Positions 1 to 22,111 of a DNA stretch of 64,000 nucleotides are shown one piece after another (position 1 is the first letter of the stretch; each line of letters opens with the position of its first letter). The notes beneath the pieces are model-generated. The model was not told the origin of the DNA, did no database searches, and saw nothing but the letters and a program-made list of their open reading frames with translations. This DNA is from Delphinus delphis (Eukaryota; Chordata; Mammalia; Artiodactyla; Delphinidae): contig NW_027192650.1 of assembly GCF_949987515.2 (NCBI RefSeq), positions 4,030,001 to 4,094,000 on the forward strand, in the 5' to 3' direction. The translations under genes were made by a program, and so were the position numbers.

Positions 1-1579
1 CAAGAACCTCGTTTACAGTACAAGTTCAACATCGCAGAAAGTGAAAAATGGATAAAGAAGTTGTGCTATTTATTTACAAAGCAATATCACTCAGCAATGA
101 AATCTATGTCATCAGACCCTTAGCAGCACAATGAGTGGATTCAGGTATGATGATTCTAACTGAAATAAGTCACACAGAAAAAGAAACATCATAAGATATC
201 AGTAATACACGGAATGTAAACTTGGCTACACAGGAACTGAATTACAGAACAGAACAGGGTCTCAAATTTAGAAAACCAACTTATGCTTGCTTAAGGGGAA
301 AGGTGAGTTGGGGTGCTGCATAAAACCAGAGATTGAAATGAGCACAGATAAAGTTCCTTAAGCCAAATATGGAATAGACAAGAGCTACTCCTTGCTCAAC
401 GAAATGGACTCAACACCGCATATTAAACGCCTAAGAATGTACCTGACTAGTAAGTATCGTAAAACCTATGGATTGCTATGTCTCCGAAAGAGAATCAAGC
501 ATGTGTACAGGGGCATAAACGCAGCAGTGATAGGACTGGAGAGGTTCGGTGAGCAAATGAAGACCCTTTGAAGTCATATTGCATGGTACCCATTCCACGG
601 GTCTCAACTCTCCAGGTTTAAGGTATTCTTTCTTCAGCTAAAACATGCATGTGGAACCCAGAGTATGAACAACCGTGTGATCGGGAGACGTGTTCAAATA
701 TGTCTCAGTTTTCGTCCCCTGGTACTTCGGTGCAACATTCCAGACGCTTTACTAACACTCTCCCCACTTGGAGAGTCAGTGCCTTTAACCTCCTGTTTGG
801 CCCAGTTTGCAATTTCTGCGGAAGATGAACAGGAATAGCGAGAACCAATGAGAGACAAGCGGGAGGTGTCTGGACGGGCAAATTTAACTCTAATTTCCCA
901 CCAGGATGAGGAATTAACCAAAGGCTCAGCGTGCCATGCCGGAACCAGATTAGGGCCTGAAGCCATCCTGCGGTGTTGCGGCCAGGTCACAAGAAAGCGA
1001 GTTGAAGAAAGGAGCTCAGGGGCACTGTAATTCACAAACCTGCAGAGTTATAAATGACAGCTATCGTCCAAAAATATACTGAAGTAAGGCTGCCAAGAGG
1101 ACTTGAAAGCGGGGCAGAATTGCAGGAAACCGATTTCAGGAGGTAGACTGGAATTGCATTGAAAGCATAGGAAAAGAGGCAGAACGTCCACAATGATGCA
1201 CTTGGCCAAAAAGGGCGTATGCGTTTTTTCCTGAATATATTCAGGAAAAAACGCATACGCCCTTTTTGGCCAACCAAGCAAGCTTGCAAAGGAAATCTGA
1301 ACTACAATGAAGTCTCACTTCCCCCCGGTCAAAAGGGCCATCTGAAAAAGTGTAAAATCCAGAAAGGCAGGACAGGCCATGGAGAACTGGGAGCCTTGTT
1401 ATGCTGATGGGCGGGATGTAAATTGCCAACAGACACTCGTGAGAAGTGTATGGTGTTTCCTGAAACATCTAAAAAACAAATCAACAGAGCCTAGGGCACT
1501 TCCACTTATGGTCCTATAGCTTAGGGAAATTAAAATCAAAAAGACACAGCCACCCCAAAGTTTGGGACGCCTCTGTTTA
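1..1579 (+). repeat. Satellite unit 1 (1,579 bp)
   Basis: 5-prime block carries TTGTGCTATTTATTTAC, shared only with unit 3. The middle block reads GTATGAACAACCGTGTGATC, shared with units 3 and 7. Bases 1-1250 look identical to 3160-4409, two units downstream. Palindrome 1202-1273 is perfect. The tail from about 1372 (ACACTCGTGAG, AAATCAACAGAG) instead matches the tail of unit 8. Confidence 0.97.
1202..1273. repeat. 72-bp perfect palindrome (hairpin/cruciform element), reference copy in unit 1
   Basis: Each half is 36 bp and is the exact reverse complement of the other, with no spacer. The outer ends are TTGGCCAA, the arms contain GGGCGTATGCG followed by six T, and the centre is CCTGAATATATTCAGG. 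Symmetry stops at once outside (C on both sides). Copies start at 1202, 2781, 4361, 5941, 7520, 9100, 10682, 12262, 13842, 15420, 16997, 18575, 20153, 21733, 23312, 24891, 26469, 28049, 29628, 31207, 32786, 34365, 35943, 37522, 39100, 40679, 42258, 43837, 45415, 46994, 48572, 50151, 51730, 53310, 54889, 56469, 58048, 59628, 61207 and 62787, each 72 bp. By my reading 26 of 40 are perfect; unit entries list the exceptions, with arm positions counted 0-71. A transcript of either strand would fold into a stem of about 34 bp. Origin unknown: it could be a fossil palindromic MITE-like DNA transposon, but no target-site duplication is visible. Confidence 0.97.
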
Positions 1580-3159
1580 CAAGAACCTCGTTTACAGTAC
1601 AAGTTCAACATCGCAGAAAGTGAAAAATGGATAAAGAAGTTGTGGTATTTACTTACAAAGCAATATCACTCAGCAATGAAATCTATGTCATCAGGCCCTT
1701 AGCATCACAATGAGTGGATTCAGGTATGATGATTCTAACTGAAGTAAGTCACACAGAAAAAGAAACATCATAAGATATCAGTAATACACGGAATGTAAAC
1801 TTGGCTACACAGGAACTGAATTACAGAACAGAACAGGGTCTCAAATTTAGAAAACAAACTTATGCTTGCTTAAGGGGAAAGGTGAGTTGGGGTGCTGCAT
1901 AAAACCAGAGATTGAAATGAGCACAGATAAAGTTCCTTAAGTCAAATATGGAATAGACAAGAGCTACTCCTTGCTCAATGAAATGGACACAACACCGCAT
2001 ATTAAACGCCTAAGAATGTACCTGACTAGTAAGTATCTTAAAACCTATGGATTGCTATGTCTCTGAAAGAGAATCAAGCATGTGTACAGGGGCATAAACG
2101 CAGCAGTGATAGGATTGGAGAGGTTCGGTGAGCAAATGAAGACCCTTTGAAGTCATATTGCATGGTACCCTTTCCACGGGTTTCAACTACCCAGGTTTAA
2201 GGTATTCTTCCTTCAGCTAAAACATGCATGTGGAAACTAGAGTATGATCAACCATGTGATTGGGAGACGTGTTCAAATATGTCTCAGTTTTCGTACCCTG
2301 GTACTCGGGTGCAACATTCCAGACGCTTTACTAACACTCTCCCGACTTGGAGAGTCAGCGCCTTTAACCTCCTGTTTGGCCCAGTTTGCAGTTTCTGCGG
2401 AAGATGAACAGGAATAGCGAGAACCAATGAGAGACTAGCTGGAGGTGTCTGGACGGGCAAATTTAACTCTCATTTCCCACCAGAAAGAGGAAATAACCAA
2501 AGGCTCAGCGTGCCGTGCCGGAACCAGATTAGGGCCTGAAGCCATCCTGCGGTGTGGCGGGCAGCTCAAAAGAAAGCGAATTGAAGAAAGGAGCTCAGGC
2601 GCACTGTAATTCACAAACCTGCAGAGTTATAAATGACAGCTATCGTCCAAAAATAGACTGAAGTAAGGCTGCCAAGAGGACTTGAAAGCAGGGCAGAATT
2701 GCAGGAAACCGATTTCAGGAGGTAGACTGGAATTGCATTGAAAGCATAGGAAAAGAGGCAGAACGTCCACAATGATGCACTTGGCCAAAAAGGGCGTATG
2801 CGTTTTTTCCTGAATATATTCAGGAAAAAACGCATACGCCCTTTTTGGCCAACCAAGCAAGCTTGCAAAGGAAATCTGCACTACAATGAAGTCTCACTTC
2901 CCCCCGGTCAAAAGGGCCATCTGAAAAAAGTGTAAAATCCAGAAAGGCAGGACAGGCCATGGAGAACTGGGAGCCTTGTTATGCTGATGGGCGGGATGTA
3001 AATTGCCAACAGACACTTGGGAGAAGTGTATGGTGTTTCCTGAAACATCTAAAAAACAAAGCAACAGAGCCTAGGGCACTGCCACTTATGGTCCTATAGC
3101 TTAGGGAAATTAAAATCAAAAAGACACAGCCACCCCAAAGTTTGGGACGCCTCTGTTTA
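1580..3159 (+). repeat. Satellite unit 2 (1,580 bp), mosaic
   Basis: The first ~710 bp match unit 9, seven units away, with one difference seen (A at 1989). The middle block has GGAAACTAGAG and GTGATTGGG. The 3-prime half (ACCAGAAAGAGG, AAGCGAATTG, CAGGCGCACTG) instead matches unit 13. Palindrome 2781-2852 is perfect. Confidence 0.97.
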
Positions 3160-4739
3160 CAAGAACCTCGTTTACAGTACAAGTTCAACATCGCAGAAAG
3201 TGAAAAATGGATAAAGAAGTTGTGCTATTTATTTACAAAGCAATATCACTCAGCAATGAAATCTATGTCATCAGACCCTTAGCAGCACAATGAGTGGATT
3301 CAGGTATGATGATTCTAACTGAAATAAGTCACACAGAAAAAGAAACATCATAAGATATCAGTAATACACGGAATGTAAACTTGGCTACACAGGAACTGAA
3401 TTACAGAACAGAACAGGGTCTCAAATTTAGAAAACCAACTTATGCTTGCTTAAGGGGAAAGGTGAGTTGGGGTGCTGCATAAAACCAGAGATTGAAATGA
3501 GCACAGATAAAGTTCCTTAAGCCAAATATGGAATAGACAAGAGCTACTCCTTGCTCAACGAAATGGACTCAACACCGCATATTAAACGCCTAAGAATGTA
3601 CCTGACTAGTAAGTATCGTAAAACCTATGGATTGCTATGTCTCCGAAAGAGAATCAAGCATGTGTACAGGGGCATAAACGCAGCAGTGATAGGACTGGAG
3701 AGGTTCGGTGAGCAAATGAAGACCCTTTGAAGTCATATTGCATGGTACCCATTCCACGGGTCTCAACTCTCCAGGTTTAAGGTATTCTTTCTTCAGCTAA
3801 AACATGCATGTGGAACCCAGAGTATGAACAACCGTGTGATCGGGAGACGTGTTCAAATATGTCTCAGTTTTCGTCCCCTGGTACTTCGGTGCAACATTCC
3901 AGACGCTTTACTAACACTCTCCCCACTTGGAGAGTCAGTGCCTTTAACCTCCTGTTTGGCCCAGTTTGCAATTTCTGCGGAAGATGAACAGGAATAGCGA
4001 GAACCAATGAGAGACAAGCGGGAGGTGTCTGGACGGGCAAATTTAACTCTAATTTCCCACCAGGATGAGGAATTAACCAAAGGCTCAGCGTGCCATGCCG
4101 GAACCAGATTAGGGCCTGAAGCCATCCTGCGGTGTTGCGGCCAGGTCACAAGAAAGCGAGTTGAAGAAAGGAGCTCAGGGGCACTGTAATTCACAAACCT
4201 GCAGAGTTATAAATGACAGCTATCGTCCAAAAATATACTGAAGTAAGGCTGCCAAGAGGACTTGAAAGCGGGGCAGAATTGCAGGAAACCGATTTCAGGA
4301 GGTAGACTGGAATTGCATTGAAAGCATAGGAAAAGAGGCAGAACGTCCACAATGATGCACTTGGCCAAAAAGGGCGTATGCGTTTTTTCCTGAATATATT
4401 CAGGAAAAACCGCATACGCCCTTTTTGGCCAACCAAGCAAGCTTGCAAAGGAAATCTGCACTACAATGAAGTCTCACTTCCCCCCGGTCAAAAGGGCCAT
4501 CTGAAAAAATTGTAAAATCCAGAAAGGCAGGACAGGTCATGGAGAACTGGGAGCATTGTTATGCTGATGGGCGGGATGTAAATTGCCAACAGACACTCAG
4601 GAGAAGTGTATGGTGTTTCCTGAAACATCGAAAAAACAAAGCAACAGAGCCTAGGGCACTTCCACTTATGGTCCTATAGCTTAGGGAAATTAAAATCAAA
4701 AAGACACAGCCACCCCAATGTTTGGAACGGCTCTGTTTA
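3160..4739 (+). repeat. Satellite unit 3 (1,580 bp)
   Basis: Near copy of unit 1 as far as the palindrome. Palindrome 4361-4432 has one right-arm change, A to C at 4410 (arm position 49). The tail is of mixed type: ACACTCAGG with CAATGTTTGGAACGG. Confidence 0.97.
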
Positions 4740-6318
4740 CAAGAACCTCGTTTACAGTACAAGTTCAACATCGCAGAATGTGAAAAATGGATAAAGAAGT
4801 TGTGGTATTTACTTACAAAGCAATATCACTCAGCAATGAAATCTGTGTCATCAGGCCCTTAGCAGCACAATGAGTGGATTCAGGTATGATGAGTCTAACT
4901 GAAATAAGTCACACAGAAAAAGAAACATCATAAGATATCAGTAATACACGGAATGGAAACTTGGCTACACAGGAACTGAATTACAGAACAGAACAGGGTC
5001 TCAAATTTAGAAAACCAACTTATGCTTGCTTAAGGGTAAAGGTGAGTTGGGGTGCTGCATAAAACCAGAGATTGAAATGAGCAGAGATAAAGTTCCTTAA
5101 GCCAAATATGGAATAGACAAGAGCTACTCCTTGCTCAACGAAATGGACTCAACACCGCATATTAAACGCCTAAGAATGTACCTGACTAGTAAGTATCTTA
5201 AAACCTATGGATTGCTATGTCTCCGAAAGAGAATCAAGCATGTGTACAGGGGCATAAACGCAGCAGTGATAGGATTGGAGAGGTTCGGTGAGCAAATGAA
5301 GACCCTTTGAAGTCATATTGCATGGTACCCATTCCACGGGTTTCAACTACCCAGGTTTTAGGTATTCTTCCTTCAGCTAAAACATGCATGTGGAACCCAG
5401 AGTATGATCAACCATGTGATCGGGAGACGTGTTCAAATATGTCTCAGTTTTCGTACCCTGGTACTCGGGTGCAACATTCCAGACGCTTTACTAACACTCT
5501 CCCCACTTGGAGAGTCAGCGCCTTTAACCTCCTGTTTGGCACAGTTTGCAATTTCTGCGGAAGATGAACAGGAATAGCGAGAACCAATGAGAGGCTAGCT
5601 GGAGGTGTCTGGACGGGCAAATTTAACTCTCATTTCCCAACAGGAAGAGGAAATAACCAAAGGCTCAGCGTGCCGTACCGGAACCAGATTAGGGCCTGAA
5701 GCCATCCTGCGGTGTTGCGGCCAGCTCAAAAGAAAGCGAGTTGAAGAAAGGAGCTCAGGGGCACTGTAATTCACAAACCTGCAGAGTTATAAATGACAGC
5801 TATCGTCCAAAAATAGACTGAAGTAAGGCTGCCAAGAGGACTTGAAAGCGGGGCAGAATTACAGGAAACCGATTTCAGGAGGTAGACTGGAATTGCATTG
5901 AAAGCATAGGAAAAGAGGCAGAACGTCCACAATGATGCACTTGGCCAAAAAGGGCGTATGCGTTTTTTCCTGAATATATTCAGGAAAAAACGCATACGCC
6001 CTTTTTGGCCAACCAAGCAAGCTTGCAAAGGAAATCTGAACTACAATGAAGTCTCACTTCCCCCCGGTCAAAAGGGCCATCTGAAAAAGTGTAAAATCCA
6101 GAAAGGCAGGACAGGCCATGGAGAACTGGGAGCCTTGTTATGCTGATGGGCGGGATGTAAATAGCCAACAACCACTCGGGAGAAGTGTATGGTGTTTCCT
6201 GAAACATCTAAAAAACAAAGCAACAGAACCTAAGGCACTTCCACTTATGGTCCTATAGCTTAGGGAAATTAAAATCAAAAAGACACAGCCACCCCAAAGT
6301 TTGGAACGGCTCTGTTTA
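4740..6318 (+). repeat. Satellite unit 4 (1,579 bp)
   Basis: Middle block reads GGAACCCAGAGTATGATC (no deletion), and the unit carries TTTGGCACAG, a variant shared with units 8, 40 and 41. Palindrome 5941-6012 is perfect. The tail is of the ACAACCACTCGGG / GGAACGGCTC type. Confidence 0.97.
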
Positions 6319-7898
6319 CAAGAACCTCGATTACAGTACAAGTTCAACATCGCAGAAAGCGAAAAATGGATAAAGAAGTTGTGGTATTTACTTACAAAGC
6401 AATATCACTCAGCAATGAAATCTGTGTCATCAGGCCCTTAGCAGCACAATGAGTGGATTCAGGTATGATGATTCTAACTGAAATAAGTCACACAGAAAAA
6501 GAAACATCATAAGATATCAGTAATACACGGAATGTAAACTTGGCTACACAGGAACTGACTTATAGAACAGAACAGGGTCTCAAATTTAGAAAACCAACTT
6601 ATGCTTGCTTAAGTGTAAAGGTGAGTTGGGGTGCTGCATAAAACCAGAGATTGAAATGAGCACAGATAAAGTTCCTTAAGCCAAATATGGAATAGACAAG
6701 AGCTACTCCTTGCTCAATGAAATGGACTCAACACCGCATATTAAACGCCTAAGAATGTACCTGACTAGTAAGTATCTTAAAACCTATGGATTGCTATGTC
6801 TCCGAAAGAGAATCAAGCATGTGTACAGGGGCATAAACGCAGCAGTGATAGGATTGGAGAGGTTCGGTGAGCAAATGAAGACCCTTTGAAGTCATATTGC
6901 ATGGTACCCATTACACGGGTCTCAACTCTCCAGGTTTTAGGTATTCTTCCTTCAGCTAAAACATGCATGTGGAACCCAGAGTATGATCAACCATGTGATC
7001 GGGAGACGTGTTCAAATATGTCTCAGTTTTCGTACCCTGGTACTCGGGTGCAACATTTCAGACGCTTTACTAACACTCTCCCGACTTGGAGAGTCAGTCC
7101 CTTTAACCTCCTGTTTGGCCCAGTTTGCAATTTCTGTGGAAGATGAACAGGAATAGCGAGAACCAATGAGAGACTAGCTGGAGGTGTCTGGACGGGCAAA
7201 TTTAACTCTCATTTCCCACCAGGAAGAGGAATTAACCAAAGGCTCAGCGTGCCGTGCCAGAACCAGATTAGGGCCTGAAGCCATCCTGCGGTGTTGCGGC
7301 CAGCTCACAAGAAAGCGAGTTGAAGAAAGGAGCTCAGGGGCACTGTAATTCACAAACCTGCAGAGTTATAAATGACAGCTATCGTCCAAAAATAGACTGA
7401 AGTAAGGCTGCCAAGAGGACTTGAAAGCGGGGCAGAATTGCAGGAAACCGATTTCAGGAGGTAGACTGGAATTGCATTGAAAGCATAGGAAAAGAGGCAG
7501 AACGTCCACAATGATGCACTTGGCCAAAAAGGGCGTATGCGTTTTTTCCTGAATATATTCAGGAAAAAACGCATACGCCCTTTTTGGCCAACCAAGCAAG
7601 CTTGCAAAGGAAATCTGCACTACAATGAAGTCTCACTTCCCCCCGGTCAAAAGGGCCATCTGAAAAAATTGTAAAATCCAGAAAGGCAGGACAGGCCATG
7701 GAGAACTGGGAGCCTTGTTATGCTGATGGGCGGGATGTAAATTGCCAACAGACACTCGGGAGAAGTGTATGGTGTTTCCTGAAACATCTAAAAAACAAAG
7801 CAACAGAGCCTAGGGCACTTCCACTTATGGTCCTATAGCTTAGGGAAATTAAAATCAAAAAGACACAGCCACCCCAAAGTTTGGGACGCCTCTGTTTA
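6319..7898 (+). repeat. Satellite unit 5 (1,580 bp)
   Basis: Same middle-block type as unit 4, but with TTCTGTGGAAG (a decayed CpG) and GTCAGTCCC. Palindrome 7520-7591 is perfect. The tail is of the ACAGACACTCGGG / GGGACGCC type. Confidence 0.97.
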
Positions 7899-9479
7899 CA
7901 AGAACCTCGTTTACTGTACAAGTTCAATATCACAGAAAGTGAAAAATGGATAAAGAACTTGTGATACTTACGTACAATGCAGTATCACTCAGCAATGAAA
8001 TCTATGTCATCAGGCCCGTAGCAGCATAATGAGTGGATTCAGGTACGATGATTCTAACTGAAATAAGTCACACAAAAAAAGCAACATCAAAAGATATCAC
8101 TAATGCACGGAATGTAAACTTGGCTATACTGGAACTGAATTCCAAAACAGAACAGGGTCTCAAATGTAGAAAACCAACTTATGCTTGCTTAAGGGGAAAG
8201 GTGAGTTGGGGTGCTGCATAAAACCAGAGATTGAAATGAGCACAGATAAAGTTCCTTAAGCCAAATATGGAATAGACAAGAGCTACTCCTTGCTCAACGA
8301 AATGGACTCAACACCGCATATTAAACGCCAAAGAATATACCTGACTAGTAAGTATCTTAAAACCTATAGACTGCTATGTCTCCGAAAGAGAATCAAGCAT
8401 GTGTACAGGGGCATAAACGCAGCAGTGATAGGATTGGAGAGGTTCGGTGAGCAAATGAAGACCCTTTGAAGTCATATTGCATGGTACCCATTCCACGGGT
8501 TTCAACTACCCAGGTTTTAGGTATTCTTCCTTCAGCTAAAACATGCATGTGGAACCCAGAGTATGATCAACCATGTGATCGGGAGACGTGTTCAAATATG
8601 TCTCAGTTTTCCTCCCCTGGTACTCGGGTGCAACATTCCAGACGCTTTACTAACACTCTCCCCACTTGGAGAGTCAGTCCCTTTAACCTCCTGTTTGGCC
8701 CAGTTTGCAATTTCTGCGGAAGATGAACAGGAATAGCGAGAACCAATGAGAGGCTAGCTGGAGGTGTCTGGACGGGCAAATTTAACTCTCATTTCCCACC
8801 AGGAAGAGGAATTAACCAAAGGCTCAGCATGCCATGCCGGAAACAGATTAGGGCCTGAAGCCATCCTGCGGTGTTGCGGCCAGGTCACAAGAAAGCGAGT
8901 TGAAGAAAGGAGCTCAGGGGCACTGTAATTCACAAACCTGCAGAGTTATAAATGACAGCTATCGTCCAAAAATAGACTGAAGTAAGGCTGCCAAGAGGAC
9001 TTGAAAGCGGGGCAGAATTGCAGGAAACCGATTTCAGGAGGTAGACTGGAATTGCATTGAAAGCATAGGAAAAGAGGCAGAACGTCCACAATGATGCACT
9101 TGGCCAAAAAGGGCGTATGCGTTTTTTCCTGAATATATTCAGGAAAAAACGCATACGCCCTTTTTGGCCAAACAAGCAAGCTTGCAAAGGAAATCTGCAC
9201 TACAATGAAGTCTCACTTCCCCCCCGGTCAAAAAGGCCATCTGAAAAAAGTGTAAAATCCAGAAAGGCAGGACAGGCCATGGAGAACTGGGAGCCTTGTT
9301 ATGCTGATGGGCGGGATGTAAATAGCCAACAGACACTCCGGAGAAGTGTATGGTGTTTCCTGAAACATCTAAAAAACAAAGCAACAGAGCCTAGTGCATT
9401 TCCACTTATGGTCCTATAGCTTAGGGAAATTAAAATCAAAAAGACACAGCCACCCCAAAGTTTGGGACGCCTCTGTTTA
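7899..9479 (+). repeat. Satellite unit 6 (1,581 bp)
   Basis: 5-prime block belongs to the alternative subtype (CTTACGTACAATGCAG, CCCGTAGCAGCATAATG) and closely matches unit 8 over about 800 bp, including CACACAAAAAAAGCAACATC. The C-run after the palindrome is one longer than usual. Palindrome 9100-9171 is perfect. Confidence 0.97.
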
Positions 9480-11060
9480 CAAGAACCTCGTTAACCATAC
9501 AAGTTCAATATCACAGAAAGTGAAAAATGGATAAAGAAGTTGTGGTACTCATGTACAATGCAATATCACTCAGCAATGAAATCTATGTCACCAGGCCCGT
9601 AGCAGCATAATGAGTGGATTCGGGTATGGTGATTCTATCTGAAATAAGTCACACAGAAAAAGAAACATCAAAAAATATCACTAATACATGGAATTTAAAC
9701 TTGGCTACAGAGGAACTGAATTACAAAACAGAACAGGGTCTCAAATTTAGAAAACCAACTTATGCTTGCTTAAGTGGAAAGATGAGTTGGGGTGCTGCAT
9801 AAAAACAGAGATTGAAATGAGCACAGATAAAGTTCCTTAAGCCAAATATGGAATAGACAAGAGCTACTCCTTGCTCAACGAAATGGACTCAACACCCCAT
9901 ATTAAACGCCTAAGAATATACCTGACTAGTAAGTATCTTAAAACCTATGGATTGCTATGTCTCCAAAAGGGAATCAAGCGTGTGTACAAGGGTCATAAAC
10001 GCAGGAGTGATAGGATTGGAGAGATTCGGTGAGCAAATGAAGACCCTTTGAAGTCATATTGCATGGTACCCATTCCACGGGTCTCAACTCTCCAGGTTTA
10101 AGGTATTCTTTCTTCAGCTAAAACATGCATGTGGAACCCAGAGTATGAACAACCGTGTGATCGGGAGACGTGTTCAAATATGTCTCAGTTTTCGTCCCCT
10201 GGTACTTCGGTGCAACATTCCAGACGCTTTACTAACACTCTCCCCACTTGGAGAGTCAGTGCCTTTAACCTCCTGTTTGGCCCAGTTTGCAATTTCTGCG
10301 GAAGATGTACAGGAATAGGGAGAACCAATGAGAGACAAGCGGGAGGTGTCTGGACGGGCAAATTTAACTCTAATTTCCCACCAGGATGAGGAATTAACCA
10401 AAGGCTCAGCGTGCCATGCCGGAACCAGATTAGGGCCTGAAGCCATCCTGCGGTGTTGCGGCCAGGTCACAAGAAAGCGAGTTGAAGAAAGGAGCTCAGG
10501 GGCACTGTAATTCACAAACCTGCAGAGTTATAAATGACAGCTATCGTCCAAAAATAGACTGAAGTAAGGCTGCCAAGAGGACTTGAAAGCGGGGCAGAAT
10601 TGCAGGAAACCGATTTCAGGAGGTAGACTGGAATTGCATTGAAAGCATAGGAAAAGAGGCAGAACGTCCACAATGATGCACTTGGCCAAAAAGGGCGTAT
10701 GCGTTTTTTCCTGAATATATTCAGGAAAAAACGCATACGCCCTTTTTGGCCAACCAAGCAAGCTTGCAAAGGAAATCTGCACTACAATGAAGTCTCTCTT
10801 CCCCCCGGTCAAAAGGGACATCTGAAAAAATTGTAAAATCCAGAAAGGCAGGACAGGCCATGGAGAACTGGGAGCCTTGTTATGCTGATGGGCGGGATGT
10901 AAATTGCCAACAGACACTTGGGAGAAGTGTATGGTGTTTCCTGAAACATCTAAAAAACAAAGCAACAGAGCCTAGGGCACTTCCACTTATGGTCCTATAG
11001 CTTAGGGAAATTAAAATCAAAAAGACACAGCCACCCCAAAGTTTGGGACGCCTCTGTTTA
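9480..11060 (+). repeat. Satellite unit 7 (1,581 bp), mosaic
   Basis: 5-prime part is a private version of the alternative subtype (ACTCATGTACAATGC). A 1-bp insertion gives CAAGGGTCATAAAC near 9988. From about 10040 to 10555 it switches to the rare middle block of units 1 and 3, with private changes at GATGTACAGG and AATAGGG. Palindrome 10682-10753 is perfect. Confidence 0.97.
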
Positions 11061-12640
11061 CAAGAACCTCATTTACCGTACAAGTTCAATATCACAGAAA
11101 GTGAAAAATGGATAAAGAACTTGTGGTACTTACGTACAATGCAGTATCACTCAGCAATGAAATCTATGTCATCAGGCCCGTAGCAGCATAATGAGTGGAT
11201 TCAGGTACGATGATTCTAACTGAAATAAGTCACACAAAAAAAGCAACATCAAAAGATATCACTAATGCACGGAATGTAAACTTGGCTACACTGGAACTGA
11301 ATTCCAAAACAGAACAGGGTCTCAAATGTAGAAAACCAACTTATGCTTGCTTAAGGGTAAAGGTGAGTTGGGGTGCTGCATAAAACCAGAGATTGAAATG
11401 AGCACAGATAAAGTTCCTTAAGCCAAATATGGAATAGACAAGAGCTACTCCTTGCTCAACGAAATGGACTCAACACCGCATATTAAACGCCAAAGAATGT
11501 ACCTGACTAGTAAGTATCTTAAAACCTATAGACTGCTATGTCTCCGAAAGAGAATCAAGCATGTGTACAGGGGCATAAACGCAGCAGTGATAGGATTGGA
11601 GAGGTTCGGTGAGCAAATGAAGACCCTTTGAAGTCATATTGCATGGTACCCATTCCACGGGTTTCAACTACCCAGGTTTTAGGTATTCTTCCTTCAGCTA
11701 AAACATGCATGTGGAACCCAGAGTATGATCAACCATGTGATCGGGAGACGTGTTCAAATATGTCTCAGTTTTCCTCCCCTGGTACTCGGGTGCAACATTC
11801 CAGACGCTTTACTAACACTCTCCCCACTTGGAGAGTCAGTGCCTTTAACCTCCTGTATGGCACAGTTTGCAATTTCTGCGGAAGATGAACAGGAATAGTG
11901 AGAACCAATGAGAGACTACCTGGAGGTGTCTGAACGGGCAAATTTAACTCTCATTTCCCACCAGGAAGAGGAATTAACCAAAGGCTCAGCATGCCATGCC
12001 GGAACCACATTAGGGCCTGAAGACATCCTGCAGTGTTGCGGCCAGCTCACAAGAAAGCGAGTTGAAGAAAGGAGCTCAGGGACACTGTAATTCACAAACC
12101 TGCAGAGTTATAAATGACACCTATCGTCCAAAAATTGACTGAAGTAAGGCTGCCAAGAGGACTTGAAAGCAGGGCAGAATTGCAGGAAACCAATTTCAGG
12201 AGGTAGACAGGAATTGCATTTCAAGCATAGGAAAAGAGGCAGAACATCCACAGTGATGCACTTGGCCAAAAAGGGCGTATGCGTTTTTTCCTGAATATAT
12301 TCAGGAAAAAACGCATACGCCCTTTTTGGCCAACCAAGCAAGCTTGCAAAGGAAATCTGCACTACAATGAAGTCTCACTTCCCCCCGGTCAAAAGGGCCA
12401 TCTGAAAAAAGTGTAAAATCCAGAAAGGCAGTACAGGCCATGGAGAACTGGGAGCCTTGTTATGCTGATGGGCGGGATGTAAATTGCCAACAGACACTCG
12501 TGAGAAGTGTATGGTGTTTCCTGAAACATCTAAAAAACAAATCAACAGAGCCTAGGGCACTTCCACTTATGGTCCTATAGCTTAGGGAAATTAAAATCAA
12601 AAAGACACAGCCACCCCAAAGTTTGGGACGCCTCTGTTTA
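11061..12640 (+). repeat. Satellite unit 8 (1,580 bp)
   Basis: 5-prime block is the alternative subtype, near-identical to unit 6. The 3-prime half carries GAGACTACCTGGAGG, TCTGAACGGGC and GCATTTCAAGCATAGG, shared wholly or partly with unit 14. Palindrome 12262-12333 is perfect. The tail matches the tail of unit 1. Confidence 0.97.
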
Positions 12641-14219
12641 CAAGAACCTCGTTTACAGTACAAGTTCAACATCGCAGAAAGTGAAAAATGGATAAAGAAG
12701 TTGTGGTATTTACTTACAAAGCAATATCACTCAGCAATGAAATCTATGTCATCAGGCCCTTAGCATCACAATGAGTGGATTCAGGTATGATGATTCTAAC
12801 TGAAGTAAGTCACACAGAAAAAGAAACATCATAAGATATCAGTAATACACGGAATGTAAACTTGGCTACACAGGAACTGAATTACAGAACAGAACAGGGT
12901 CTCAAATTTAGAAAACAAACTTATGCTTGCTTAAGGGGAAAGGTGAGTTGGGGTGCTGCATAAAACCAGAGATTGAAATGAGCACAGATAAAGTTCCTTA
13001 AGTCAAATATGGAATAGACAAGAGCTACTCCTTGCTCAATGAAATGGACTCAACACCGCATATTAAACGCCTAAGAATGTACCTGACTAGTAAGTATCTT
13101 AAAACCTATGGATTGCTATGTCTCTGAAAGAGAATCAAGCATGTGTACAGGGGCATAAACGCAGCAGTGATAGGATTGGAGAGGTTCGGTGAGCAAATGA
13201 AGACCCTTTGAAGTCATATTGCATGGTACCCTTTCCACGGGTTTCAACTACCCAGGTTTAAGGTATTCTTCCTTCAGCTAAAACATGCATGTGGAAACTA
13301 GAGTATGATCAACCATGTGATTGGGAGACGTGTTCAAATATGTCTCAGTTTTCCTCCCCTGGTACTCGGGTGCAACATTCCAGACGCTTTACTAACACTC
13401 TCCCGACTTGGAGAGTCAGTCCCTTTATCCTCCTGTTTGGCCCAGTTTGCAATTTCTGTGGAAGATGAACAGGAATAGCGAGAACCAATGAGAGACTAGC
13501 TGGAGGTGTCTGGACGGGCAAATTTAACTCTCATTTCCCACCAGGAAGAGGAATTAACCAAAGGCTCAGCGTGCCGTGCCAGAACCAGATTAGGGCCTGA
13601 AGCCATCCTGTGGTGTTGCGGCCAGCTCACAAGAAAGCGAGTTGAAGAAAGGAGCTCAGGGGCACTGTAATTCACAAACCTGCAGAGTTATAAATGACAG
13701 CTATCGTCCAAAAATAGACTGAAGTAAGGCTGCCAAGAGGACTTGAAAGCGGGGCAGAATTGCAGGAAACCGATTTCAGGAGGTAGACTGGAATTGCATT
13801 GAAAGCATAGGAAAAGAGGCAGAACGTCCACAATGATGCACTTGGCCAAAAAGGGCGTATGCGTTTTTTCCTGAATATATTCAGGAAAAAACGCATACGC
13901 CCTTTTTGACCAACCTAGCAAACTTCCAAAGGAAATCTGCACTACAATGAATTCTCACTTCTCCCCGTCAAAAGGGCCATCTGAAAAAAGTGTAAAATCC
14001 AGAAAGGCAGGACAGGCCATGGAGAACTGGGAGCCTTGTTATGCTGATGGGCGGGATGTAAATTGCCAACAACCACTCGGGAGAAGTGTATGGTGTTTCC
14101 TGAAACACCTAAAAAACAAAGCAACAGAACCTAGGGCACTTCCACTTATGGTCCTATAGCTTAGGGAAATTAAAATCAAAAAGACACAGCCACCCCAAAG
14201 TTTGGAACGGCTCTGTTTA
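12641..14219 (+). repeat. Satellite unit 9 (1,579 bp)
   Basis: The first half is like unit 2. Palindrome 13842-13913 has G to A at 13909 (arm position 67). A dense patch of changes follows to about 13970 and destroys the AAGCTT site present in the other complete units. The tail is of the ACAACCACTCGGG type. Confidence 0.97.
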
Positions 14220-15796
14220 CAAGAACCTCGTTTACAGTACAAGTTCAACATCGCAGAAAGTGAAAAATGGATAAAGAAGTTGTGGTATTTACTTACAAAG
14301 CAATATCACACAGCAATGAAATCTGTGTCATCAGGCCCTTAGAAGCACAATGAGTGGATTCAGGTATGATGATTCTAACTGAAATAAGTCACACAGAAAA
14401 AGAAACATCATAAGATATCATTAATACACGGAATATAAACTTGGTTACACAGGAACTGAATTACAGAACAGAACAGGGTCTCAAATTTAGAAAACCAACT
14501 TATTCTTGCTTAAGGGGAAAGGTGAGTTGGGGTGCTGCATAAAACCAGAGATTGAAATGAGCACAGATAAAGTTCCTTAAGCCAAATATGGAATAGACAA
14601 GAGCTACTCCTTGCTCAACGAAATGGACTCAACACTGCATATTAAACGCCTAAGAATGTACCTGACTAGTAAGTATCTTAAAAACTATGGATTGCTATGT
14701 CTCCGAAAGAGAATCAAGCATGTATACAGGGGCATAAACGCAGCAGTGATAGGACTGGGGAGGTTTGGTGAGCAAATGAAGAACCTTTGAAGTCATATTG
14801 CATGGTACCCATTACACGGGTCTCAACTCTCCAGGTTTAAGGTATTCTTCCTTCAGCTAAAACATGCATGTGGAACCCAAGTATGATCAACCATGTGAAC
14901 GGGAGACGTGTTCAAATATGTCTCAGTTTTCCTCCCCTGGTACTCGGGTGCAACATTCCAGACGCTTTACTAACACTCTCCCCACTTGGAGAGTCAGTCC
15001 CTTTAACCTCCTGTTTGGCCCAGTTTGCAATTTCTGTGGAAGATGAACAGGAATAGCGAGAACCAATGAGAGGCTAGCTGGAGGTGTCTGGACGGGCAAA
15101 TTTAACTCTCATTTCCCACCAGGAAGAGGAAATAACCAAAGGCTCAGCGTGCCGTACCAGAACCAGATTAGGGCCTGAAGCCATCCTGCGGTGTTGCGGC
15201 CAGCTCAAAAGAAAGCGAGTTGAAGAAAGGAGCTCAGGGGCACTGTAATTCACAAACCTGCAGAGTTATAAATGACAGCTATCGTCCAAAAATAGACTGA
15301 AGTAAGGCTGCCAAGAGGACTTGAAAGCGGGGCAGAATTGCAGGAAACCGATTTCAGGAGGTAGACTGGAATTGCATTGAAAGCATAGGAAAAGAGGCAG
15401 AACGTCCACAATGATGCACTTGGCCAAAAAGGGCGTATGCATTTTTTCCTGAATATATTCAGGAAAAAACGCATACGCCCTTTTTGGCCAACCAAGCAAG
15501 CTTGCAAAGGTAATCTGCACTACAATGAAGTCTCACTTCCCCCCAGTCAAAAGGGCCATCTGAAAAAAGTGTAAAATCCAGAAAGGCAACAGGCCATTGA
15601 GAACTGGGAGCCTTGTTATGCTGATGGGCGGGATGTAAATTGCCAACAGACACTTGGGAGAAGTGTATGGTGTTTCCTGAAACATCTAAAAAACAAAGCA
15701 ACAGAGCCTAGGGCACTTCCACTTATGGTCCTATAGCTTAGGGAAATTAAAATCAAAAAGACACAGCCACCCCAAAGTTTGGAACGGCTCTGTTTA
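14220..15796 (+). repeat. Satellite unit 10 (1,577 bp)
   Basis: First unit with the 1-bp-shorter middle block GGAACCCAAGTATG / GTGAACGGG. The 5-prime block carries AGAAGCACAATG and AATATAAACTTGG. A 2-bp deletion in the tail gives AAGGCAACAGGCC. Palindrome 15420-15491 has G to A at 15441 (arm position 21, a CpG site), shared with unit 17. It is a close copy of unit 11. Confidence 0.97.
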
Positions 15797-17373
15797 CAAG
15801 AACCTCGTTTACAGTAGAAGTTCAACATCGCAGAAAGTGAAAAATGGATAAAGAAGTTGTGGTATTTACTTACAAAGCAATATCACACAGCAATGAAATC
15901 TGTGTCATCAGGCCCTTAGAAGCACAATGAGTGGATTCAGGTATGATGATTCTAACTGAAATAAGTCACACAGAAAAAGAAACATCATAAGATATCATTA
16001 ATACACGGAATATAAACTTGGTTATACAGGAACTGAATTACAGAACAGAACAGGGTCTCAAATTTAGAAAACCAACTTATTCTTGCATAAGGGGAAAGGT
16101 GAGTTGGGGTGCTGCATAAAACCAGAGATTGAAATGAGCACAGATAAAGTTCCTTAAGCCAAATATGGAATAGACAAGAGCTACTCCTTGCTCAACGAAA
16201 TGGACTCAACACCGCATATTAAACGCCTAAGAATGTACCTGACTAGTAAGTATCTTAAAAACTATGGATTGCTATGTCTCTGAAAGAGAATCAAGCATGT
16301 ATACAGGGGCATAAACGCAGCAGTGATAGGACTGGGGAGGTTTGGTGAGCAAATGAAGAACCTTTGAAGTCATATTGCATGGTACCCATTACACGGGTCT
16401 CAACTCTCCAGGTTTAAGGTATTCTTCCTTCAGCTAAAACATACATGTGGAACCCAAGTATGATCAACCATGTGAACGGGAGACGTGTTCAAATATGTCT
16501 CAGTTTTCCTCCCCTGGTACTCGGGTGCAACATTCCAGACGCTTTACTAACACTCTCCCCACTTGGAGAGTCAGTCCCTTTAACCTCCTGTTTGGCCCAG
16601 TTTGCAATTTCTGTGGAAGATGAACAGGAATAGCGAGAACCAATGAGAGGCTAGCTGGAGGTGTCTGGACGGGCAAATTTAACTCTCATTTCCCACCAGG
16701 AAGAGGAAATAACCAAAGGCTCAGCGTGCCGTACCAGAACCAGATTAGGGCCTGAAGCCATCCTGCGGTGTTGCGGCCAGCTCAAAAGAAAGCGAGTTGA
16801 AGAAAGGAGCTCAGGGGCACTGTAATTCACAAACCTGCAGAGTTATAAATGACAGCTATCATCCAAAAATAGACTGAAGTAAGCCTGCCAAGAGGACTTG
16901 AAAGCGGGGCAGAATTGCAGGAAACCGATTTCAGGAGGTAGACTGGAATTGCATTGAAAGCATAGGAAAAGAGGCAGAACGTCCAAAATGATGCACTTGG
17001 CCAAAAAGGGCGTATGCGTTTTTTCCTGAATATATTCAGGAAAAAACGCATACGCCCTTTTTGGCCAACCAAGCAAGCTTGCAAAGGAAATCTGCACTAC
17101 AATGAAGTCTCACTTCCCCCTGGTCAAAAGGGCCATCTGAAAAAAGTGTAAAATCCAGAAAGGCAACAGGCCATTGAGAACTGGGAGCCTTGTTATGCTG
17201 ATGGGCGGGATGTAAATTGCCAACAGACACTTGGGAGAAGTGTATGGTGTTTCCTGAAACATCTAAAAAACAAAGCAACAGAGCCTAGGGCACTTCCACT
17301 TATGGTCCTATAGCTTAGGGAAATTAAAATCAAAAAGACACAGCCACCCCAAAGTTTGGAACGGCTCTGTTTA
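15797..17373 (+). repeat. Satellite unit 11 (1,577 bp)
   Basis: Adjacent near-duplicate of unit 10, with the same AGAAGCACAATG, AATATAAACTTGG and 2-bp tail deletion. Private or semi-private changes include CTTGCATAAGG and ATCATCC (a CpG transition). Palindrome 16997-17068 is perfect, so the arm change of unit 10 is not shared. Confidence 0.97.
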
Positions 17374-18951
17374 CAAGAGCCTCGTTTACAGTAGAAGTTC
17401 AACATCGCAGAAAGTGAAAAATGGATAAAGAAGTTGTGGTATTTACTTACAAAGCAATATCACTCAGCAATGAAATCTGTGTCATCAGGCCCTTAGCAGC
17501 ACAATGAGTGGATTCAGGTATGATGATTCTAACTGAAATAAGTCACACAGAAAAAGAAACATCATAAGATATCCCTAATACACGGAATGTAAACTTGGCT
17601 ACACAGGAACTGCATTCCAAAACAGAACAGGGTCTCAAATTTAGAAAACCAACTTAAGCTTGCTTAAGGGGAAAGGTGAGTTGGGGTGCTGCATAAAACC
17701 AGAGATTGAAATGAGCACAGATAAAGTTCCTTAAGCCAAATATGGAATAGACAAGAGCTACTCCTTGCTCAATGAAATGGACTCAAAACCCCATATTAAA
17801 CGCCTAAGTATGTACCTGACTAGTAAGTATCGTAAAACCTATGGATTGCTATGTCTCCGAAAGAGAATCAAGCATGTGTACAGGGGCATAAACGCAGCAG
17901 TGATAGGATTGGAGAGGTTCGGTGAGCAAATGAAGACCCTTTGAAGTCATATTGCATGGTACCCATTCCACGGGTTTCAACTACCCAGGTTTAAGGTATT
18001 CTTCCTTCAGCTAAAACATGCATGTGGAACCTAGAGTTAGATCAACCATTTGATCGGGAGACGTGTTCAAATATGTCTCAGTTTTCCTCCCCTGGTACTC
18101 AGGTGCAACATTCCAGACGCTTTACTAACACCCTCCCGACTTTGAGAGTCAGTCCCTTTAACCTCCTGTTTGGCCCAGTTTGCAATTTCTGCGGAAGATG
18201 AACAGGAATAGCGAGAACCAATGAGAGGCTAGCTGGAGGTGTCTGGACGGGCAAATTTAAATCTCATTTCCCACCAGGAAGAGGAATTAACCAAAGGCTC
18301 AGCATGCCATGCCGGAAACAGATTAGGGCCTGAAGCCATCCTGCGGTGTTGCAGCCAGGTCACAAGAAAGCGAGTTGAAGAAAGGAGCTCAGGGGCACTG
18401 TAATTCACAAACCTGCAGAGTTATAAATGACAGCTATCGTCCAAAAATAGACTGAAGTAAGGCTGCCAAGAGGACTTGTAAGCGCGGCAGAATTGCAGGA
18501 AACCGATTTCAGGAGGTAGACTGGAATTGCATTGAAAGCATAGGAAAAGAGGCAGAACGTCCACAATGATGCACTTGGCCAAAAAGGGCGTATGCGTTTT
18601 TTCCTGAATATATTCAGGAAAAAACGCATACGCCCTTTTTGGCCAACCAAGCAAGCTTGCAAAGGAAATCTGCACTACAATGAAGTCTCACTTCCCCCCG
18701 GTCAAAAGGGCCATCTGAAAAAAGTGTAAAATCCAGAAAGGCAACAGGCCATGGAGAACTGGGGGCCTTGTTATGCTGATGGGCGGGATGTAAATTGCCA
18801 ACAGACACTCGGGAGAAGTGTATGGTGTTTCCTGAAACATCTAAAAAACAAAGCAACAGAGCCTAGGGCACTTCCACTTATGGTCCTATAGCTTAGGGAG
18901 ATTAAAATCAAAAAGACACAGCCACCTCAAAGTTTGGGACGCCTCTGTTTA
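17374..18951 (+). repeat. Satellite unit 12 (1,578 bp)
   Basis: Middle block is a variant with GGAACCTAGAGTTAGATC and CCATTTGATC. Carries the 2-bp tail deletion of units 10-11. A private change creates an extra AAGCTT at 17656-17661. Palindrome 18575-18646 is perfect. Confidence 0.97.
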
Positions 18952-20531
18952 CAAGAACCTCGTTTACCGTACAAGTTCAATATCACAGAAAGTGAAAAAT
19001 GGATAAAGAACTTGTGGTACTTACGTACAATGCAGTATCACTCAGCAATGAAATCTATGTCATCAGGCCCGTATCAGCATAATGAGTGGATTCAGGTACG
19101 ATGATTCTAACTGAAATAAGTCACACAGAAAAAGAAACATCATAAGATATCACTAATAAACGGAATGTAAACTTGGCTACACAGGAACTGAATTCCAAAA
19201 CAGAACAGGGTCTCAAATTTAGAAAACCAACTTATGCTTGCTTAAGGGGAAAGGTGAGTTGGGGTGCTGCATAAAACCAGAGATTGAAATGAGCACAGAT
19301 AAAGTTCCTTAAGCCAAATATGGAATAGACAAGAGCTACTCCTTGCTCAACGAAATGGACTCAACACCGCATATTAAACGCCTAAGAATGTACCTGAGTA
19401 GTAAGTATCTTAAAACCTATGGATTGCTATGTCTCTGAAAGAGAATCAAGCATGTGTACAGGGGCATAAACGCAGCAGTGATAGGATTGGAGAGGTTCGG
19501 TGAGCAAATGAAGACCCTTTGAAGTCATATTGCATGGTACCCTTTCCACGGGTTTCAACTACCCAGGTTTAAGGTATTCTTCCTTCAGCTAAAACATGCA
19601 TGTGGAAACTAGAGTATGATCAACCATGTGATTGCGAGACGTGTTCAAATATGTCTCAGTTTTCGTACCCTGGTACTCGGGTGCAACATTCCAGACGCTT
19701 TACTAACACTCTCCCGACTTGGAGAGTCAGCGCCTTTAACCTCCTGTTTGGCCCAGTTTGCAGTATCTGCGGAAGATGAACAGGAATAGCGAGAACCAAT
19801 GAGAGACTAGCTGGAGGTGTCTGGACGGGCAAATTTAACTCTCATTTCCCACCAGAAAGAGGAAATAACCAAAGGCTCAGCGTGCCGTGCCGGAACCAGA
19901 TTAGGGCCTGCAGCCATCCTGCGGTGTTGCGGCCAGCTCAAAAGAAAGCGAATTGAAGAAAGGAGCTCAGGCGCACTGTAATTCACAAACCTGCAGAGTT
20001 ATAAATGACAGCTATCGTCCAAAAATATACTGAAGTAAGGCTGCCAAGAGGACTTGAAAGCAGGGCAGAATTGCAGGAAACCGATTTCAGGAGGTAGACT
20101 GGAATTGCATTGAAAGCATAGGAAAAGAGGCAGAACGTCCAAAATGATGCACTTGGCCAAAAAGGGCGTATGCGTTTTTTCCTGAATATATTCAGGAAAA
20201 AACGCATACGCACTTTGTGGCCAACCAAGCAAGCTTGCAAAGGAAATCTGCACTACAATGAAGTCTCACTTCCCCCCGGTCAAAAGGGCCATCTGAAAAA
20301 AGTGTAAAATCCAGAAAGGCAGGACAGGCCATGGAGAACTGGGAGCCTTGTTATGCTGATGGGAGGGATGTAAATTGCCAACAGACACTCGGGAGAAGTG
20401 TATGGTGTTTCCTGAAACATCTAAAAAACAAAGCAACAGAGCCTAGGGCACTTCCACTTATGGTCCTATAGCTTAGGGAAATTAAAATCAAAAAGACACA
20501 GCCACCCCAAAGTTTGGGACGCCTCTGTTTA
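18952..20531 (+). repeat. Satellite unit 13 (1,580 bp)
   Basis: Alternative 5-prime subtype with the rare CCCGTATCAGCATAATG, shared with unit 14. Middle block is of the GGAAACTAGAG type with GTGATTGCGAG. Palindrome 20153-20224 has right-arm changes at 20212 (C to A, arm position 59) and 20217 (T to G). Confidence 0.97.
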
Positions 20532-22111
20532 CAAGAACCTCGTTTACCGTACAAGTTCAATATCACAGAAAGTGAAAAATGGATAAAGAACTTGTGGTAC
20601 TTACGTACAATGCAGTATCACTCAGCAATGAAATCTATGTCATCAGGCCCGTATCAGCATAATGAGTGGATTCAGGTACGATGATTCTAACTGAAATAAG
20701 TCACACAGAAAAAGAAACATCATAAGATATCACTAATAAACGGAATGTAAACTTGGCTACACAGGAACTGAATTCCAAAACAGAACAGGTTCTCAAATTT
20801 AGAAAACCAACTTATGCTTGCTTAAGGGGAAAGGTGAGTTGGGTTGCTGCATAAAACCAGAGATTGAAATGAGCACAGATAAAGTTCCTTAAGCCAAATA
20901 TGGAATAGACAAGAGCTACTCCTTGCTCAACGAAATGGACTCAACACCGCATATTAAACGCCTAAGAATGTACCTGACTAGTAAGTATCTTAAAACCTAT
21001 GGATTGCTATGTCTCTGAAAGAGAATCAAGCATGTGTACAGGGGCATAAACGCAGCAGTGATAGGATTGGAGAGGTTCGGTGAGCAAATGAAGACCCTTT
21101 GAAGTCATATTGCATGGTACCCTTTCCACGGGTTTCAACTACCAAGGTTTAAGGTATTCTTCCTTCAGCTAAAACATGCATGTGGAAACTAGAGTATGAT
21201 CAACCAAGTGATTGGGAGACGTGTTCAAATATGTCTCAGTTTTCGTACCCTGGTACTCGGGTGCAACATTCCAGACGCTTTACTAACACCCTCCCGACTT
21301 GGAGAGTCAGTGCCTTTAACCTCCTGTTTGCCCAAGTTTGCAATTTCTGCGGAAGATGAACAGGAATAGCGAGAACCAATGAGAGACTACCTGGAGGTGT
21401 CTGAACGGGCAAATTTAACTCTCATTTCCCACCAGGAAGAGGAATTAACCAAAGGCTCAGCGTGCCATGCCGGAACCACATTAGGGCCTGAAGACATCCT
21501 GCGGTGTTGCGGCCAGCTCACAAGAAAGGGAGTTGAAGAAAGGAGCTCAGGGGCACTGTAATTCACAAACCTGCAGAGTTATAAATGACAGCTATCGTCC
21601 AAAAATATACTGAAGTAAGGCTGCCAAGAGGACTTGAAAGCGGGGCAGAATTGCAGGAAACCGATTTCAGGAGGTAGACAGGAATTGCATTTCAAGCATA
21701 GGAAAAGAGGCAGAACGTCCACAATGATGCACTTGTCCAAAAAGGGCGTATGCGTTTTTTCCTGAATATATTCAGGAAAACACGCATATGCACTTTTTGG
21801 CCAACCAAGCAAGCTTGCAAAGGAAATCTGCACTACAATGAAGTCTCACTACCCCCCAGTCAAAAAGGGCATCTGAAAAAAGTGTAAAATCCAGAAAGGC
21901 AGGACAGGCCATGGAGAACTGGGAGCCTTGTTATGCTGAAGGATGGGATGTAAATTGCCAACAACCACTCGGGAGAAGTGTATGGTGTTTCCTGAAGCAT
22001 CTAAAAAACAAAGCAACAGAGCCTAGGGCACTTCCACTTATGGTCCTATAGCTTAGGGAATTTAAAATCAAAAAGACACAGAGACCCCAAAGTTTCGAAC
22101 AGCTCTGTATA
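20532..22111 (+). repeat. Satellite unit 14 (1,580 bp), most diverged unit
   Basis: Shares the 5-prime block of unit 13 and 3-prime features of unit 8. Palindrome 21733-21804 is the most damaged copy, with changes at 21736 (G to T), 21781 (A to C), 21789 (C to T) and 21792 (C to A). The tail has private changes (GAAGGATGGG, TTTCGAACAGCTCTGTATAC). Confidence 0.97.

Follow-up and report, generated by a model that had tools for sequence, protein, structure and literature searches.

A palindrome probably derived from a mariner-type MITE in the units of a dolphin satellite, and its possible part in array homogenisation

Why does every unit of a dolphin tandem array carry the same long palindrome, where did that palindrome come from, and does it do anything for the array that holds it? 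The questions are raised by a stretch of 64,000 nucleotides of Delphinus delphis DNA (hereafter the window), which sits in C26, a 5.13-Mb contig of the 2.66-Gb genome. An earlier, sequence-only reading had singled out the palindrome as a real and special element that might extrude as a cruciform, stall replication, promote breakage and exchange between units, or give an RNA hairpin. It gave neither an origin nor a repeat class, and the likely mariner-type MITE and the cetacean satellite went unrecognised.

The palindrome and the array

The window consists of a head-to-tail array that runs on at both ends, the neighbouring loci L021 and L022 being wholly covered by units.

1-64000, plus strand, tandem satellite array in head-to-tail order; 1,579 bp per consensus unit, numbered from window position 502
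502-2080, plus strand, first whole unit in this numbering (unit 1-1579)

The palindrome is present once in each of the 40 units, with 1577-1582 bp from one copy to the next. The copies, none of which is assigned a strand, are as follows.

1202-1273, palindrome copy 1, perfect; unit 701-772
2781-2852, copy 2, perfect
4361-4432, copy 3, one change
5941-6012, copy 4, perfect
7520-7591, copy 5, perfect
9100-9171, copy 6, perfect
10682-10753, copy 7, perfect
12262-12333, copy 8, perfect
13842-13913, copy 9, one change
15420-15491, copy 10, one change
16997-17068, copy 11, perfect
18575-18646, copy 12, perfect
20153-20224, copy 13, two changes
21733-21804, copy 14, four changes
23312-23383, copy 15, two changes
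24891-24962, copy 16, perfect
26469-26540, copy 17, one change
28049-28120, copy 18, perfect
29628-29699, copy 19, two changes
31207-31278, copy 20, two changes
32786-32857, copy 21, perfect
34365-34436, copy 22, one change
35943-36014, copy 23, perfect
37522-37593, copy 24, perfect
39100-39171, copy 25, perfect
40679-40750, copy 26, perfect
42258-42329, copy 27, perfect
43837-43908, copy 28, perfect
45415-45486, copy 29, perfect
46994-47065, copy 30, perfect
48572-48643, copy 31, perfect
50151-50222, copy 32, perfect
51730-51801, copy 33, one change
53310-53381, copy 34, perfect
54889-54960, copy 35, one change
56469-56540, copy 36, perfect
58048-58119, copy 37, perfect
59628-59699, copy 38, one change
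61207-61278, copy 39, one change
62787-62858, copy 40, perfect

The first copy is a perfect palindrome of 72 bp, with 36-bp arms and no spacer. Chance alone would produce about 1e-17 such palindromes in 64 kb, and 300 shuffled versions of the unit gave no arm longer than 9 bp, bearing out the earlier claim that the structure is far beyond chance. That reading was also right to place it in every unit, but not to call every copy perfect: 26 of the 40 are, and the remaining 14 hold 21 variant bases (15 distinct changes). None of the 21 has its mirror image in the other arm of that copy, and one variant is present in 4 of 40 copies. A 41st match to the core, at 61716, is a chance match and was dropped. 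The palindrome is rich in CpG (4 in 72 bp, compared with 35 in the whole 1,579-bp unit) and is flanked by GCAC and CCAA. Folded as RNA (92 nt), it is predicted to give a stem of 34 bp closed by a 4-nt loop, at -62 kcal/mol (z = -12.8), in agreement with the hairpin of about 34 bp proposed before. Among the variants of the window units, transversions outnumber transitions (ti:tv 73:125 for singletons and 86:112 for shared variants), which is unusual for mammalian DNA.

A pattern for the arm, allowed up to three mismatches, matched the host genome 152,808 times on the forward and 153,000 times on the reverse strand, while a control returned 0. About 153,000 matches per strand indicate about 153,000 palindromes; at 1.58 kb per copy the satellite comes to approximately 242 Mb, roughly 9% of the 2.66-Gb assembly. 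The exact 80-mer made up of the palindrome and four bases on each side occurs 53,830 + 39,075 = 92,905 times genome-wide (about 61% of 153,000) and in 48 of 74 units sampled on C26. For comparison, the exact 72-mer at unit 197-268, a single far window rather than a profile, occurs 50,363 times (about 33% of 153,000) and in 37 of the 74 units.

Seventeen stretches of C26 were read. Thirteen are covered by units over at least 99.9% of their length, with best-match identities of 97.5-98.5%, and two (L028 and L036) are made of diverged units. Another two (L030 and L031, at about 0.5 and 1.0 Mb) have a GC content of 0.604, lie outside unit coverage and perhaps belong to another satellite. An edge island, comprising about 5 kb of non-satellite DNA and units of 71, 80, and 87% identity, is found twice on C26, at about 2.997-3.006 and 4.493-4.503 Mb, indicating that a block of the array was duplicated 1.5 Mb apart. 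On C1, among the first 100 places listed, copies at about 120.75-121.19 Mb lie on the minus strand and those beginning at 121.39 Mb on the plus strand, so that the satellite changes orientation on a large scale; the repeat is also present near the end of C1, at 184.1 of 184.9 Mb.

Identity of the satellite and origin of the palindrome

The repeat is most likely the common cetacean satellite, as judged by length, content, and abundance rather than by a direct sequence match or the species label. That satellite is reportedly known from the work of Arnason, Widegren and co-workers, and Kapitonov et al. are said to have traced it to L1 in 1998. The unit of the killer whale satellite is reported to measure 1,579 bp, the same as our consensus unit. 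A tandem unit of about 1,579 bp, the length expected of the delphinid form, was found here, as was an L1 3'-terminal segment in the monomer, also expected of this satellite.

1368-1682 (first unit), plus strand, L1-derived part of the unit (unit 867-1181; second piece unit 1238-1299); 59.7% to the L1 3' end in L073+L043

The L1 to which these pieces align (59.7% for unit 867-1181 and 68.8% for unit 1238-1299) lies beside an old copy of the satellite on C1. When three pieces of this L1 were compared with Pfam, two matched reverse transcriptase and the third, the end of ORF2, matched no family; in the Protein Data Bank, both one reverse-transcriptase piece and the ORF2 end hit human LINE-1 ORF2 (E 2.7e-74 and 4.2e-47). 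Our repeat thus resembles the common cetacean satellite in its 1,579-bp consensus, its L1 3'-end content, its very high copy number, and the presence of older, longer units with palindromes about 1,705-1,750 bp apart, the comparison being one of length, content, and abundance rather than letter by letter with the published monomer. A review likewise describes the common cetacean satellite as resembling the L1 3' end (PMC9659126), and for a humpback short-read assembly one of two columns gives 2.16% satellites (PMC6657726).

Judged by sequence likeness, the palindrome is most likely what remains of a palindromic MITE of the mariner type. An arm of that type, belonging to a family picked for its likeness to the palindrome, matched the host genome 1,939 + 1,893 = 3,832 times with up to three mismatches (control, 0), a two-armed element being counted twice. 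At 20 loci with exact matches, TA stands in register at the left end in 18, the matching right end is found in 15, and both in 14; among the 15 loci with a right end, 14 are 73-86 bp long and one is 60 bp. These dispersed loci are near-palindromic MITEs with an asymmetric centre. Aligned to their consensus, the satellite palindrome scores 75, compared with 33.7 +/- 5.0 (maximum, 59) in a set of 2,000 random palindromes matched to it in composition, a test that flatters the match because the family was chosen for its likeness. Both share 12-bp ends and inner TTTTTCC and GGAAAAA blocks in the same order. The satellite arm differs from the MITE arm by five bases and one insertion, all mirrored as judged by eye, and the satellite centre is fully symmetric. 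Inverted ends held in common with a dispersed mariner-type family are as expected of a MITE. The TA target-site duplication is absent at the satellite palindrome, where GCAC and CCAA form the flanks, and we therefore call it a MITE derivative rather than an intact MITE.

Made1 belongs to the mariner group. The name mariner appears suitable for our family on the basis of the TA and a Made1-like build, the latter as given in a published account (PMC1784062). Made1-type MITEs, the source of hsa-mir-548, are palindromes of about 80 bp, near perfect and with a tiny centre, according to the same account; the satellite copy likewise is predicted to give a stable RNA hairpin, and its dispersed relatives are flanked by TA on the left (18 of 20). 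The satellite copy departs from them in its tandem amplification, in having neither the TA nor the outer TTGGG/CCCAA, in the bases at the middle of the arm, and in its symmetric centre. No subfamily of dispersed MITEs that carries the satellite arm was recognised among the matches listed. The pattern used, which only a nearly intact outer end can satisfy, gave 1,404 matches with up to two mismatches, 0 exact and 4 at one mismatch (3 of these 4 at satellite spacing), and many of the 100 listed were at satellite spacing. Either the source copy would thus have been unusual, or the palindrome became symmetric before the known units separated.

DNA-transposon sequence is associated with satellite monomers elsewhere, as in Messor ants, where mariner is tied to a monomer (PMC9659126), and in clams, where MITEs occur in satellites (a reference cited in PMC8822648); in the present case, by contrast, the palindrome is still perfect in about 61% of the roughly 153,000 units. 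Our literature search, which had two original satellite papers outside its reach, found no mention of a mariner-origin palindrome in the common cetacean satellite, and the early literature may well describe the inverted repeat. As a satellite the repeat has been described before; what appears to be new is the identification of the palindrome, its conservation, and the trough of variation described below.

Variation in old units and in the main array

Diverged units on C26 at about 3.0 and 4.5 Mb (the same island twice) and on C1 at about 120.41-120.46 Mb show 71-91% identity to the consensus and represent several lineages. Conservation was counted in six of them (A, B, E1, E2, E4, and E5), none picked by its arm. 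E3 and F1, which were found by the exact arm, were left out of all conservation counts, and C, a chimera, and F2, a young unit, were left out of the six-unit counts. Changed sites amount to 47 of 425 (11%) in the palindrome versus 1,481 of 6,626 (22%) outside unit 557-916, with agreement in all six units (Fisher P 6e-9, which we read as a strong tendency since the cells share ancestry). Dropping one of each sister pair leaves P values of 2e-5 and 2e-7. The near flanks of the palindrome are not conserved (398 of 1,696 sites changed, about 0.24), an ordinary level of divergence. Only windows starting at 701-705, among 1,408 sliding windows, are as low in change as the palindrome, making it the most conserved part of the unit in these six and supporting the view that the element is real and special. 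With C and F2 added, palindrome identity is 0.889 versus 0.8025 elsewhere, 0.4% of windows are as high, and seven of eight units agree, the exception being F2 (0.903 in the palindrome versus 0.908 in the rest).

Arm-to-arm correction was rejected, since mirrored double changes are not in excess in the old units (1 versus about 0.9 expected) or in the window copies (0 of 21). In one old unit of 89% identity (L043, C1:120455925), the centre of the palindrome is two bases longer (74 bp) and still perfectly symmetric. Unit C, in the C26 island at 4490001, switches at unit 611 (601-619) from about 74% to 95% identity with the consensus, so that the exchange lies some 90 bp upstream of the palindrome.

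For the main array, we compared 74 units from C26, 50 of them around the window; some come from the duplicated block and so are not independent. A further 27 units from C1 were fetched by the exact right arm (in unit orientation), with L042 and L043 excluded; the exactness of that arm on C1 (27 of 27) is therefore circular and was not used. Two units on C6 (L076), both with exact palindromes, were chosen through an arm match and were likewise not used.

1077-1433 (first unit), no strand, trough without variants at or above 10% around the palindrome; unit 576-932, 74 units

Among the 74 C26 units, the palindrome has no variant carried by 10% or more, its flanks (144 bp to either side, 288 bp in all) have 1, and the remaining 1,219 bp have 58; the shortage in the flanks has a Fisher P of 4.5e-4. 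Rare variants occur at ordinary rates of 292, 264, and 280 per kb in the palindrome, in the flanks, and elsewhere. The palindrome holds 11 singletons among the window units, compared with a window mean of 9.15, and 23 rare variants among the 74 units, compared with 20.9. Given these ordinary counts, we rejected the idea that purifying selection acts on mutations newly arising in the main array. Arms decaying like their flanks in related species had been named beforehand among the outcomes that would speak against a functional element: equal decay is not the case in old units (11% versus 0.235), whereas recent mutations do accumulate in the arms at the ordinary rare-variant rate.

For the palindrome alone, the contrast of common with rare variants gives P 0.095. 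In a circular shift, 74 of 1,579 starts (4.7%) are as empty, and all contain the palindrome, so that they represent one event. The void at the 10% cut-off on C26 spans 356 bp and has a probability below 1 in 5,000 under random placement of sites, a figure that ignores linkage, with variants within one haplotype not independent and the width of the trough set after inspection of the data. At a 5% cut-off there is no void on C26 (P 0.39), and variants appear at unit 692 and 760. For the void on C1, P is 0.04 with the 10% cut-off and 0.38 with that of 20%. Diversity is lowest in a 72-bp window whose centre falls at 703 in the C26 units and at 668 in the C1 units, slightly upstream of the centre of the palindrome (736), and the adjacent unit 629-700 is at least as homogeneous as the palindrome (56 versus 50 of 74 units exact). 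Comparison of the C1 consensus with that of C26 shows 25 differences, all outside the stretch between unit 354 and 1096, and Fst between C1 and C26 is lowest at the palindrome (0.018, with 0.019 in the preceding window), in part because common variants are lacking there. As the flanks have normal mutation and divergence and few common variants, homogenisation seems to be fastest around the palindrome. The pattern provides modest evidence for fast recent homogenisation, and not for low mutation or long-term constraint of the flanks. The earlier proposal that exchange keeps the array homogeneous thus gains from the trough in common variants and in differentiation between arrays, at modest strength and with the trough gone at the 5% cut-off.

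Explanations for the palindrome

Our preferred reading, to which we give a probability of about 0.45, is that the palindrome is a MITE remnant that was amplified with the unit and may act as a gene-conversion focus homogenising its flanks. Its origin is well supported by the sequence comparisons; the mechanism is one that we infer. A palindromic mariner-type MITE would have come to adjoin a 5'-truncated L1 3' end in the segment that founded the satellite and been amplified along with the unit to about 153,000 copies. During replication or transcription the inverted repeat could form a hairpin or cruciform, and the folded or stalled palindrome could set off breakage or template switching. Breaks mended from other units would make the palindrome a focus of gene conversion, holding it near the majority form and homogenising its flanks within and between arrays. 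Conversion tracts would extend into the well-matched flanks in the main array and be confined to the palindrome in diverged old units, so that one mechanism would cover both the trough and the old-unit conservation. Against this reading, sequences that initiate breaks should be lost to the broken copies by conversion, which is not seen. The trough also vanishes at the 5% cut-off, the diversity minimum lies slightly upstream, one palindrome variant has reached 4 of 40 window copies, and F2 shows no advantage for the palindrome (0.903 versus 0.908).

The palindrome may instead be a passive passenger, a MITE fossil without a role, and this explanation, which follows close behind, is a serious if somewhat doubtful one. 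Homogeneity would then be the array's own, and conservation in old units would reflect low mutability or now and then a conversion by main units, which are far more numerous. Rare variants at the ordinary rate (11 versus 9.15 singletons; 23 versus 20.9 rare variants), new changes that are all one-sided (21 of 21 variant bases), the homogeneity of unit 629-700 next to the palindrome, and the loss of the trough at 5% are all consistent with a passenger. Harder to reconcile with it is the restriction of old-unit conservation to the palindrome as opposed to its flanks (0.11 versus 0.235, sharpest in E3), in a sequence that is CpG-rich (4 CpG in 72 bp versus 35 in 1,579).

The conversion focus could also be put more strongly, with the captured transposon palindrome as a homogenising engine: ectopic conversion among about 153,000 units would restore its own sequence in old copies and clear common variation some 180 bp to either side of the centre, even between chromosomes. 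In this strong form we consider it unlikely.

A function through RNA is improbable. Satellite transcripts might form the predicted 34-bp hairpin and be cut by Drosha or Dicer, giving small RNAs that target satellite transcripts or genes, in analogy to the MITE-derived miR-548. The predicted hairpin is very stable (z = -12.8), and Made1 MITEs do yield hsa-mir-548 (PMC1784062). The sequence AAAAGTTCGTTCGGGTTTTTC, printed for the cattle microRNAs bta-miR-2284y-4 and 2284w in a table of which some rows look shifted (PMC6203363), is identical to part of the dispersed MITE arm (L001-L020), and the cattle small RNA bta-un23 has 20 bases in common with it (PMC2761914). This sequence, however, differs from the satellite arm in its middle; whereas bovine miR-2284/2285 are dispersed single ruminant hairpins, the satellite arm departs from them at five bases and one insertion. 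No link of the miR-2284 family to a mariner MITE is made in the passages of PMC6785219 consulted or in PMC3847189, from which the words "transpos," "mariner," and "repeat" are absent. An Rfam scan of the first 8,000 of the 64,000 bases gave no family at the gathering score, the best being mir-3167 (40.3 bits versus 86, E 8.4e-5), as a strong hairpin would give, and a known Rfam microRNA was rejected for the bases scanned.

Still less probable is the idea, modelled on a proposal for dyad symmetries in satellites, that an extruded hairpin serves as a non-B DNA mark for centromeric chromatin or heterochromatin. A CENP-B box was rejected for the window, where no site resembling it was found with up to one mismatch (4.3 expected), an absence that fits the idea. 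Kasinathan and Henikoff's proposal of cruciforms for satellite dyad symmetries (cited in PMC8822648) points the same way, as does the switch from minus to plus copies on C1 between 121.19 and 121.39 Mb (first 100 places listed), as if the block had a centre. Copies near the end of C1 (184.1 of 184.9 Mb) look more like general heterochromatin. Finally, it is very improbable that hairpin replication of a single arm created the palindrome de novo, with its mariner likeness due to chance, since, for all its perfectly symmetric core beside the asymmetric MITE centre, its mirrored arm differences, and the lack of a recognised dispersed copy of its arm among the matches listed, its alignment score tops all 2,000 random palindromes and it keeps the identical 12-bp ends and the inner TTTTTCC and GGAAAAA in order.

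Why satellite arrays are so alike across chromosomes is an old question, and the usual answer is unequal exchange at random places. If the palindrome is indeed a focus of gene conversion, a fixed, conserved sequence with variation profiles centred nearby would offer a concrete initiation site in a repeat that makes up roughly 9% of a mammalian genome, and the cetacean satellite would be tied to a MITE family whose arm holds the published cattle miR-2284 sequence.
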